From contig JAGQLY010000018.1 in the NCBI GenBank assembly GCA_020428905.1, forward strand, positions 1 to 42,021: a stretch of DNA of 42,021 nt. Direction: 5' to 3'. The position numbers and the translations under genes are program-made. The notes beneath the pieces are model-generated. The model did not search any database. It saw only the letters and a program-made list of their open reading frames with translations, and was not told the DNA's origin. Within the stretch, counting starts at the first letter, position 1; the number at the start of each line of letters is the position of its first letter. Of this stretch, positions 35,428-38,444 are shown in pieces. This DNA comes from Candidatus Kaiserbacteria bacterium (GTDB taxonomy: Bacteria; Patescibacteriota; Minisyncoccia; Phycocordibacterales; UBA918).

Positions 35428-36327
35428 TTATACTTTTTTAGAAACAAGCATTGTGATTGCTTTGGTGACAATCGGCAGGATATCTTCGTAGAAATTCAAA
35501 TCCAAAATATCAGCCACCTTGAACCACTGCGCATCATCAAGACCACCCTTCTGTTCAAGCACAAGCTCCTGATACGGTGCTTGCGCAAGGAAGTAGTTCA
35601 CCTGCTTACGCACCTTGCCCTTTTCGGGATGTGTCGCGATGTACTCATTTTTGCCAAGTTCCGCCTCTATGGCCACCGCAAGACCGATTTCCTGTTTAAT
35701 TTTTCGGATAGCACCTTCCTGCACATCTTCTGTTTCCTCAATACCACCCTTGGTAAGGGTCCAGTGTCCAAAGATGTCGTGCACCAACGCAAGATATATT
35801 TCGCCGCCATCGGACGCGTATACTACCGCACCCGCAAGACGTTCTATCGGCATCTCTTCGTAGGGTACTTCACGCTTACGCTTCTTACCCACTTCGTCCT
35901 TTCCCGGCTCACCGATTTCTTTGTATACAGCCCCAAGCACGCCGTTAACAAATTTACTTGAGTTTTCACCACCAAACTGTTTGGCGAGTTCTATTGCTTC
36001 ATTGATAGCAACCTTCGCCGGTACTTCGGCACGATCGGCAAAGAGTAGTTCGTAGAGACCAAGACGAAGAATATTGCGATCCACCGGAGAGATACGATCA
36101 ATCGGCCAGTCTGGTGCCGCCTTTTCAATAATGAGATTAAGTTCGTCCTGTTTCTGCATGACACCATCAAGCAGTTTTTTCATAAATGGCGTATCTGAAT
36201 TGTTGGGAGCAAACTCTTCAACGTTACGAGTGAGTACTGTATCAATTTCGTTCTTCTCTACGCCATTAAGATCCCACTCAAAGAGTGTTTGGAGAACAAT
36301 GGAACGTGAAAGGTGTCTATTTGCCAT
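35428..36327 (-). CDS. nusB: NusB antitermination factor fused to a Nudix-type domain
   Basis: A 299-aa two-domain protein. Residues 1-~137 are NusB: RSIVLQTLFEWDLNG, WPIDRISPVDRNILRLGLYELLF and VAINEAIELAKQFGGENSSKFVNGVLG. After a Lys-rich linker, residues ~155-299 are Nudix-like: LAGAVVYASDGG, WTLTKGGIEETEDVQEGAIR and KIKQEIGL. Against the Nudix box G-x5-E-x7-R-E-U-x-E-E-x-G-U, the R-E becomes R-K and the E-E becomes Q-E, so catalysis may be altered or lost. An AAGGAGG lies 17 nt before the ATG, too far for it, but well placed for an in-frame AUU at 36336 (see findings). A TGG-TACACT element is upstream. Confidence 0.9.
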   Translation of the reverse strand: MANRHLSRSIVLQTLFEWDLNGVEKNEIDTVLTRNVEEFAPNNSDTPFMKKLLDGVMQKQDELNLIIEKAAPDWPIDRISPVDRNILRLGLYELLFADRAEVPAKVAINEAIELAKQFGGENSSKFVNGVLGAVYKEIGEPGKDEVGKKRKREVPYEEMPIERLAGAVVYASDGGEIYLALVHDIFGHWTLTKGGIEETEDVQEGAIRKIKQEIGLAVAIEAELGKNEYIATHPEKGKVRKQVNYFLAQAPYQELVLEQKGGLDDAQWFKVADILDLNFYEDILPIVTKAITMLVSKKV

Positions 36328-36825: not shown

Positions 36826-37419
36826 TTAAGAAAATGTGCGGCAGAATGATGCCCGGTGGACGACCGAAAGACCGTGTACGGCAAGCGCCGTACGGTGGGC
36901 CTCGGTGCCGTATCCCTTGTGTATCTCAAATCCGTACTCCGGGTACTTTTTTGCCAAACGGACCATGTGACGATCTCGGATAACCTTGGCGAGGATTGAG
37001 GCAAGGCCGATGATACGTTCCTTTTGGTCTCCTTTTACGATGGTTTCTTGGTGTGGGTAGTTGCTTGGTGCACGAAGGAGACCATCGAGTTTAATTTCGG
37101 TCTCTGCCGGATTGAGTTTCAATCGCCTGAGCCCACGATCAATTCCTTGTCGTACTGCCTGAGTAATTCCCTTTTTGTCGATTGTCGCTGCACTGACGAG
37201 TGAGACAGCATAATCGAGCACCTGTTCCTTTTTGAGTTGTTGTGTGCGGAGAAAAATCGCTTCGCGATTTTTCTCCGACAGTTTTTTAGAATCCGTTACT
37301 CCCGGGACACATTTCCAATCAAAATTCTTTGGTACAACAACAACGCCCACAGCCACCGGACCGGCGAGGGGGCCTCTTCCGGCTTCATCAACACCAACAC
37401 TATACGCTGTCTTTTTCAT
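36826..37419 (-). CDS. rnhB: Ribonuclease HII
   Basis: A 197-aa type 2 RNase H that removes ribonucleotides from DNA. The catalytic start VDEAGRGPLAGPVAVG (Asp-Glu pair), LKLDGLL, and SILAKVIRDRHM with the third and fourth acidic positions are present. The ATG at 37419 has AAGGAGG 15 nt upstream. Two oddities: codons for SEKNREAIFL lie in a perfect 14-bp hairpin (37247-37277), and the first 41 nt of the gene are repeated exactly 155 nt upstream. Confidence 0.96.
   Translation of the reverse strand: MKKTAYSVGVDEAGRGPLAGPVAVGVVVVPKNFDWKCVPGVTDSKKLSEKNREAIFLRTQQLKKEQVLDYAVSLVSAATIDKKGITQAVRQGIDRGLRRLKLNPAETEIKLDGLLRAPSNYPHQETIVKGDQKERIIGLASILAKVIRDRHMVRLAKKYPEYGFEIHKGYGTEAHRTALAVHGLSVVHRASFCRTFS
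37247..37277. repeat. Perfect intragenic hairpin in rnhB
   Basis: CGGAGAAAAATCGC (37247-37260), loop TTC, complement (37264-37277): a 14-bp perfect stem inside conserved coding sequence (family DSKKLSEKKRE region). Confidence 0.8.
37379..37419 (-). repeat. 41-bp direct repeat, copy A (rnhB codons 1-14)
   Basis: The first 41 nt of rnhB, from ATG to GCCGG. It is identical to copy B (37534-37574). Confidence 0.95.
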
Positions 37420-37442
37420 GATTTCGTGAGGGGGCCTCCTTC

Positions 37443-37574
37443 TTACAGAAGCTGTACACCTTGTCGACAGTTTGTTTCCCTTCGGTCACAAACTGTCTGG
37501 CAAGGTCTTGCGAAAGCGCCCCGCGCTTTCTCACCGGCTTCATCAACACCAACACTATACGCTGTCTTTTTCAT
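37443..37574 (-). pseudogene. Duplicated rnhB 5' end with a palindromic insertion (43-codon remnant ORF)
   Basis: From ATG 37574 the frame shares its first 14 codons (MKKTAYSVGVDEAG) with rnhB, then diverges and stops at a TAA (37443-37445) after 43 codons. The diverging ~94-nt segment holds two hairpins: GAAAGCGC/GCGCTTTC with a 3-nt loop (37512-37530), and ACAAACTGTC/GACAGTTTGT (37468-37499) embedded in ACCTTG/CAAGGT. After it, AGGCCCCCTC, which matches rnhB codons 15-18, reappears at 37428-37437 as part of the region bearing the true Shine-Dalgarno. It looks like a duplication of at least 53 nt of rnhB into which a palindromic piece was placed. It could also be a translated leader. Confidence 0.75.
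37534..37574 (-). repeat. 41-bp direct repeat, copy B
   Basis: Identical to 37379-37419; opens the remnant ORF at 37443-37574. Flanks of the two copies differ. Confidence 0.95.
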
Positions 37575-37602
37575 TTTGTACTTTTAAGTATACGGCATGA
37601 GA

Positions 37603-37651: not shown

Positions 37652-37918
37652 CTACTTGGGTACCAACTCAAGGTCGGACATGCCGGTACGCGTACGTATC
37701 GTCTCCAAACGGTAGTCCCGAACGCGCGCGTCAATCTCGTCCTCTGGTACCGCAAACAGCGTCCCAACATTCTGGGTATTGAGACGGATAGTTACGTTAA
37801 ACTTGCCACTCACAAATAACGTACGTACAAATAGGTACCCATCGTCCCGACGATATACTTCAGCACCTTCCATACCGTGTGCAGTGTATGTGGTCCATAC
37901 TACGGTTGACTGTGACAT
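37652..37918 (-). CDS. Orphan protein of unknown function, 88 aa
   Basis: No family is recognised. A small soluble, beta-rich protein: VVWTTYTAHGMEGAEVYRR, then DGYLFVRTLFVSGKFNVTIR strands, and a charged helical C-terminus (EDEIDARVRDYRLETIRT). No TM, signal or Cys. AGGAG lies 6 nt before the ATG, and TATAGT (37939-37944 on the minus strand) is a likely -10. It is a single-gene unit with its own terminator, next to another orphan of the same style. Confidence 0.75.
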   Translation of the reverse strand: MSQSTVVWTTYTAHGMEGAEVYRRDDGYLFVRTLFVSGKFNVTIRLNTQNVGTLFAVPEDEIDARVRDYRLETIRTRTGMSDLELVPK

Positions 37919-38034: not shown

Positions 38035-38355
38035 TCAGTCGGGCAGCCACCGTGACACACTCTCGTCGTCACGGTCCGTGAGAAAAGAGTGCCAAAGATC
38101 AACCATCCTTTGCTTCAGACAGAGATGTTGTCTCCTGAATGCCTTCGCGGCCAATAGCCGCGAGACTTTGTCACATTCAGTGGCAGCGCATTCTGCATCG
38201 ACGTGTTGCATACATACGTCCATGCCAACGTTGATAAATGCGGTAAGCCACATCCTGTCACCTTCCGGTTCATGCTTCGCATGAACCACAATGCCACGAA
38301 TGTATGCGATTGAAAACCCTTCTCGGACTTTCAACCATACGATTCTTTTATACAT
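38035..38355 (-). CDS. Orphan protein of unknown function, 106 aa
   Basis: No family is recognised. The N-terminal half is beta-like (YKRIVWLKVREGFSIAYIRG, WLTAFINVGMD); the C-terminal half is helical with Cys residues at VCMQH, AECAATEC and HLCLK. The start at 38355 is fixed by AGGAGG 8 nt upstream; the longer frame from 38427 is not supported. It has a nearly ideal promoter (38416-38444) and a terminator. A CCTGCC/GGCAGG hairpin abuts the Shine-Dalgarno. It is divergent from dnaE. Confidence 0.75.
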   Translation of the reverse strand: MYKRIVWLKVREGFSIAYIRGIVVHAKHEPEGDRMWLTAFINVGMDVCMQHVDAECAATECDKVSRLLAAKAFRRQHLCLKQRMVDLWHSFLTDRDDESVSRWLPD

Positions 38356-38366
38356 AATATGATCCT

Positions 38367-38381
38367 CCTGCCTCAGGCAGG
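38367..38381 (-). promoter_or_regulatory. Hairpin abutting the Shine-Dalgarno of the 106-aa orphan
   Basis: CCTGCC-TGA-GGCAGG on the minus strand; the last two or three bases of the right arm are shared with the AGGAGG Shine-Dalgarno, so folding could hinder ribosome binding. Confidence 0.45.
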
Positions 38382-38415
38382 TGAAAAAACTGGTGGGGGC
38401 AAAAATCCGGGCAGC

Positions 38416-38444
38416 ATAATAACCCAATTATATTGCTATGTCAA
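38416..38444 (-). promoter_or_regulatory. Sigma-70 promoter of the 106-aa orphan
   Basis: On the minus strand TTGACA (38439-38444), 17-nt spacer, TATTAT (38416-38421). The start codon is 60 nt further on. Confidence 0.8.

Follow-up and report, generated by a model that had tools for sequence, protein, structure and literature searches.

A broken rnhB start beside a probable copy of a dispersed palindromic element family in Candidatus Kaiserbacteria

The gene for ribonuclease HII (rnhB) in a Candidatus Kaiserbacteria genome is preceded by a second, broken copy of its own beginning, and the question raised by this locus is what separates the two copies and how the spare one came to be there. 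Within the window (the whole 42,021-nt stretch of DNA analysed here), the first 41 nt of rnhB recur upstream with 100% identity at an offset of 155 nt, as a preliminary description had stated. The pair is the only repeated 41-mer of the window in either orientation, and chance is therefore excluded. We refer to the start of the working gene as T2 and to the upstream copy, which is flush with a palindromic insert, as T1 (Table 1). The order dnaE–rnhB–rpmF–nusB is common to members of the genome family to which the window belongs, so that rnhB lies at its native place.

In the direction of the gene, T1 stops after GATGAAGCCG-G, and past the insert the rnhB reading resumes as a direct copy of GAGGCCCCCTC (X1), in agreement with the earlier statement that the next rnhB codons follow there. 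The resumed sequence had also been assigned to the Shine–Dalgarno region of the intact gene; it does contain GGAGG, but the 15 nt that separate this motif from the rnhB start codon are long as Shine–Dalgarno spacing. The insert, described as ~94 nt with two hairpins, is indeed palindromic and occupies about 37439–37533, but its hairpins number three; the last two bases of the modelled element (to 37535) are shared with T1. The element's open frame is carried by the minus strand in the window. The insertion frame is the one that meets the element's stop, with the intact start directly downstream.

Table 1. Positions and supporting evidence for the parts of the rnhB locus, in window coordinates
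Feature	Position	Strand	Evidence
rnhB, ribonuclease HII, intact	36826–37419	−	PF01351, E 9.1e-37
T2, first 41 nt of working rnhB	37379–37419	−	Exact direct repeat of T1
Filler, 8 nt, between T2 and X1	37420–37427	−	Matches no native upstream sequence
X1, direct copy of the rnhB codons past the junction (original 37366–37376)	37428–37438	−	Exact 11-nt match; junction test
Palindromic element, three hairpins	about 37439–37535	+	106.7 bits against covariance model R1
Hairpin A, 3 bp, loop TTACA	37440–37450	+	Covarying
Hairpin B, 16 model pairs	37458–37506	+	Covarying
Hairpin C, 7 model pairs	37512–37530	+	Covarying
T1, broken upstream copy of rnhB start, flush with element	37534–37574	−	Exact repeat; compared with element-free relatives
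43-codon ORF, T1 fused to element, closed by the element's conserved TAA	37443–37574	−	
Putative promoter, presumably native	37575–37595	−	−10-like TATACT adjoining T1 upstream

Taking the evidence as a whole, we consider it likely that the insert belongs to a family of small mobile palindromic elements, previously unlabelled, in Candidatus Kaiserbacteria-type Patescibacteria. The element is ~95 nt long, has three covarying hairpins and is dispersed at up to 69 copies per genome. A DNA search located a 96% copy in the same genome beside a tRNA-Cys gene (G000:C4:13225-13320) and a 71% copy adjoining a nucleotide-kinase-like gene, with matches in 37 of the 49 genomes of the family. The search of genome and relatives proposed in the preliminary description was thus fruitful, and a covariance model (R1, built from 13 copies) matched 47 of these 49 genomes (699 matches summed) and 8 copies in the window's own genome at E < 1e-6. 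An insert without other copies, or a leader conserved in all relatives, is not what we observe: copies abound and few rnhB loci carry the element. It lies just upstream at three of the 29 other family rnhB loci retrieved (L155, L162 and L171), and a fourth, in G015, was reached via L065.

Beyond the family, at least 18 of 285 genomes in an even sample of the class match under stricter filters, two of these being family members. An exact-pattern scan of genomic contigs returned mostly Candidatus Kaiserbacteria, Zambryskibacteria and other Patescibacteria MAGs, and no Rickettsia, among the matches listed; the same pattern had 0 matches in viral contigs. Rfam searches of three loci at E up to 5 gave only tRNA and chance-level matches, none of them on the element. 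A literature search that covered few subscription journals found no description of it.

The hairpins are supported by very strong covariation. Double changes occur at 17 of 26 pairs in 13 sequences, and the observed values were reached by 0 of 500 shuffles; in 81 sequences, whose alignment was fitted to the model, all 26 pairs change on both sides, with 451 double-change cells compared with 106.7 in shuffles. One-sided changes of the G-U type account for 56 cells, 32 of them at one pair, and their scarcity beside the double changes hints that the palindrome may matter as DNA or on both strands. Relative to shuffled sequences, the window insert folds with z −6.3 on the plus strand and −3.7 on the minus strand. 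Terminal inverted repeats were not detected in 235 copies, where on average 2.46 of 12 positions are complementary between the first and last 12 nt (2.85 when shuffled).

Some copies reside within protein-coding genes. Read in gene direction, the frame beginning at the element's GTG stays open in 56 of the 180 cores but in only 26 of 180 shuffled cores; the next frame opens with TGA and the third often closes at TAA near the 3′ end. Element copies lie in frame, with no duplication, within RsmH, at one site of IleS in two genomes, and, as a variant open in phase 1, within LepA. In all three proteins the element forms an insert of 30–35 residues left unmatched by family or structure-sequence comparison: 1m6y aligns with RsmH over 40–241 and 277–377, and 8c8v with IleS over 65–303 and 336–450. 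Two further ORFs, one 2OG-oxygenase-like and one for a membrane protein, contain the element in frame, with family matches that are absent or do not bracket the insert. Gene interiors are nevertheless avoided as compared with controls, 44 of 144 copies lying inside ORFs against 72% of 499 control positions. So the frame decides: where it is open, the element is carried as peptide, and where it meets a stop, an intact start stands alongside. Insertions in the open frame would be tolerated as extra peptide.

The duplicated gene start had been regarded as a tandem duplication; far from being private to this locus, it is a recurrent companion of the element. We counted, in copies with flanks of at least 220 nt, sequence flush with the element end CTCA/C (here and below, the slash marks the junction or break) that has a second copy no more than 220 nt away across the element. 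By this rule 30 of 159 copies are flanked by a flush duplication whose intact member lies 5′ of the element, as against 0.4% in swapped pairs. How many copies qualify depends on how the duplication is anchored: one rule gave 35 of 173, the requirement of full flanks 30 of 159, and a looser anchor, which has no null of its own, 52 of 235. Most element copies have no flush duplication. The mirrored arrangement occurs in 11 of 159 copies, several of them tandem arrays, and weakens the notion that the duplication always lies on one side. At a mirrored locus in the window's own genome (L068, G000:C1), an exact 47-nt repeat abuts the 5′ end of the element, and a terminator-like hairpin stands intact on the opposite side.

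Duplicated protein targets include rnhB (in several genomes), msrA, GH1 glycosidases, a kinase, a glycosyltransferase and an MBL-type gene, the names other than rnhB being a reading of N-terminal sequences. In the tRNA cases (Gln, Arg, Leu, Tyr, Cys and Ile), the broken tRNA part adjoins the intact gene. The junction is in phase 1 in 16 of 17 protein cases, and the broken start meets a stop in or soon after the element. This is also the nature of the 43-codon ORF of the window, which is a broken gene start read into the element's stop; the purpose-made regulatory leader once suggested is not supported. The element ends at G-rich sites (RRG/G): the last two target bases are G in 23 and 22 of 30 cases, and the next base is G in all 30. 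At L062 and L097, in two genomes, a tRNA-Leu(CAA) gene lies between miaA-like and parB-like genes in opposite orientations, with the element in the same orientation at both.

The rnhB loci allow the broken and unbroken states to be compared. In element-free relatives there is a single rnhB start, at the position now held by T1. Among the five element-bearing cases (G000, G002, G015, G018 and G048), the break points vary between DEAG/R and VG/VDEAG, so that a single inherited insertion does not account for all of them. Two-piece rnhB matches in G014, G030, G031, G039, G045 and G047 were considered as further cases and rejected, each being one continuous match in which the element was not found. 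X1–element–T1 junctions without duplication occur at L001, L098 and L268 and in the rnhB genes of G002, G015 and G018.

The filler between T2 and the element resembles native upstream DNA in only two of 33 cases (L186 and L108), and a long flush target-site duplication was rejected as a general rule on this ground. Near-identical pairs have their outer limit at the start codon in the window, L005 and L096, and near a tRNA or terminator end at L186, L365, L060 and L097, but not at L370 and L368; the numbers are small. Near the element's other end, about six cases show a direct copy of the target, and 9 of 28 show an inverted copy that is 7 nt or longer, where 4.5% is expected.

The divergence between T1 and T2 bears on the order of events. 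The two are 100% identical in 12 of 52 cases, and many other pairs differ at 10–25% of positions. The differences comprise 44 synonymous and 7 nonsynonymous changes, a count made on stretches trimmed to the best amino-acid agreement, so that far-end nonsynonymous changes are undercounted, and with the tandem array L093 left out. T1 as a neutral leftover copy would not show such a bias. At L062, T1 is the 5′ half of a tRNA-Leu with the acceptor of the orthologous tRNA in G018, while the intact tRNA has another acceptor; a simple fresh duplication therefore fails there. Taken together, the near-synonymous differences and the L062 acceptors indicate that at least some of the intact copies represent another allele and not a fresh duplicate.

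These observations give weight to an account in which the spare start came first, by tandem duplication or by an allele replacement that left the old start in place, and the element inserted afterwards into this leftover, which was not essential. The synonymous excess is what two alleles would give, the L062 fragment belongs to the other tRNA-Leu type, and in G015, G018 and G019 it is the T1-like start that has the ancestral-looking MKW form, T2 being the odd one. Against this stand the identical pairs and the association at rnhB, where leftovers were seen with the element in five inspected cases and without it in about one (L179), so that leftover and element are linked. We regard a spare start that preceded the element as a real possibility, though one that we do not favour. 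L179 itself, upstream of rnhB in G019, shows another ATGAAATGG start fragment, with no element beside it, which may be a scar.

Several further explanations treat the arrangement as functional. An attenuator or re-initiation leader, formed by the T1 ORF and the hairpins and acting on the downstream gene, would account for the constrained look of the T1 codons and for a TAA stop supplied by the element ahead of an AAGGAG-like sequence. It is nonetheless improbable, because element and duplication also occur at tRNA genes, in both orientations relative to the gene (the opposite one at L002, L060 and L097), because the element lies in frame within genes that have no duplication at all, and because T1 at L108 is broken by a second palindrome. 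The latter is a different, 27-nt palindrome that splits the already broken tRNA-Gln start. Removal of element, filler and T2 in the manner of an intron, joining T1 to the gene body, would fit the shared end point of T1 and T2 and their common resemblance to working starts; yet the structured strand is antisense to protein genes and sense at L002 and L060, the joined L062 tRNA would carry mismatched acceptor arms, and Rfam yields no intron family, which leaves this very unlikely. We give as little credence to a guide or antisense RNA in which the structured core is followed by antisense T1 and acts on the neighbouring gene: T1 is flush with the core's 3′ end and often identical to T2, but the 10–25% divergence of many pairs and the lack of any adjacent match at most copies speak against it. 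An assembly artefact might be suspected in a draft genome of 35 contigs, but many independent assemblies show the same arrangement with differing sequences, and such an error is scarcely credible.

What moves the element was approached through candidate enzymes. Reverse transcriptase (PF00078) was found in 12 of 49 family genomes and was absent from the copy-rich G014, G007, G010, G044 and G041; Y1 transposase was found in 28 of 49 and was absent from the copy-rich G007 and G009, and one of 30 Y1 loci (in G041) has an element nearby. No mobilising enzyme was found among these candidates, and mobility based on either was rejected as a general mechanism on this distribution. In the window's own genome a truncated Y1 transposase of the IS200 type lies 1.5 kb from a copy of the element, and there is a single RT-like gene (L326, G000:C32; L338, G000:C25). 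Comparison of flanks for a clean empty site gave relatives at only about 64–79% identity, except for one short repeat-like match (210 nt at 85%).

On balance we lean towards an element that is non-autonomous DNA, moved by an enzyme and inserted precisely at RRG/G with 0–3 nt lost. Its movement would produce hardly any conventional target-site duplication, or none. Outside the open frame, and in tRNA genes, insertions would survive only beside an intact gene end, and the survivors would be those that gained a second end at or near the event. The spare end may arise during or soon after insertion, by replication-coupled template switching or allele exchange; this timing, the weakest of our inferences, is suggested because the spare end is so often found beside the element. 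That insertion and spare end are a single event, in which the element's own pathway copies the end of the target gene, is a speculative and rather unlikely extension. The copied outer limits (start codons, tRNA 5′ ends and terminator ends) would then resemble RNA ends, and an essential gene that was hit would be left working, a harmless-landing strategy for a mobile element without an enzyme.

The preliminary description had likened the insert to the palindromic elements of Rickettsia. As set out in two reports, these are ~100–150 bp, form long stem-loops, are dispersed, enter conserved protein genes as in-frame fusions by way of an open frame and are also inserted in RNA genes (PMC2229807, PMC10969869). 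The present element likewise fuses in frame into RsmH, IleS and LepA and is found with RNA genes, so that in-frame entry into coding sequences stands; membership of the Rickettsia families fails on the terminal inverted repeats. It differs further in having three separate hairpins with no repeat joining its ends, in its host, which belongs to an unrelated phylum, and in the recurrent duplicated gene start or tRNA part flush at one end. The comparison is a good analogy in behaviour. Protein-coding palindromes of Wolbachia are reportedly a comparable system.

Other small elements resemble it in part. Bacterial MITEs (ERIC, RUP, Correia/NEMIS) are likewise small, non-autonomous, intergenic-biased and structured, but the present element has neither terminal inverted repeats nor a short fixed target-site duplication, and a search that covered Y1 found no partner transposase. 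REP/REPIN sequences with RAYT (Y1) are also dispersed hairpin elements, and Y1 genes occur in some of the present genomes, but not in all copy-rich ones and seldom near the element; gene-end duplications are not known as a feature of REP. SINE-like retroelements, inserted by target-primed reverse transcription, share one flush end, variable filler at the other and a variable, long duplication, whereas RT is missing from most copy-rich genomes here and junctions like that of the window show no duplication that is flush at both ends.

The result is an element family that is new but of a known kind, and that has an unusual companion in the duplicated gene end. Mobile DNA that survives within coding sequence is best known from Rickettsia and its relatives. 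A further case, seemingly unrelated and comprising hundreds of copies in ultra-small Patescibacteria, shows that genome streamlining does not preclude such elements, and its many copies can be compared to learn how they move and how host genes withstand them. The loci at which an intact gene end recurrently adjoins a broken one serve as natural experiments on the rescue of essential genes and on gene-start turnover. For annotation, start fragments upstream of genes in these genomes can be element scars.

Three further features of the window were recorded. A perfect 14-bp palindrome at 37247–37277, within the rnhB coding sequence, is not a member of the element family. Two small ORFs between rnhB and dnaE (37652–37918 and 38035–38427, both on the minus strand) have no Pfam match. 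One ORF (35428–36327, minus strand) is a fusion of NusB and NUDIX domains, both above Pfam cut-offs.
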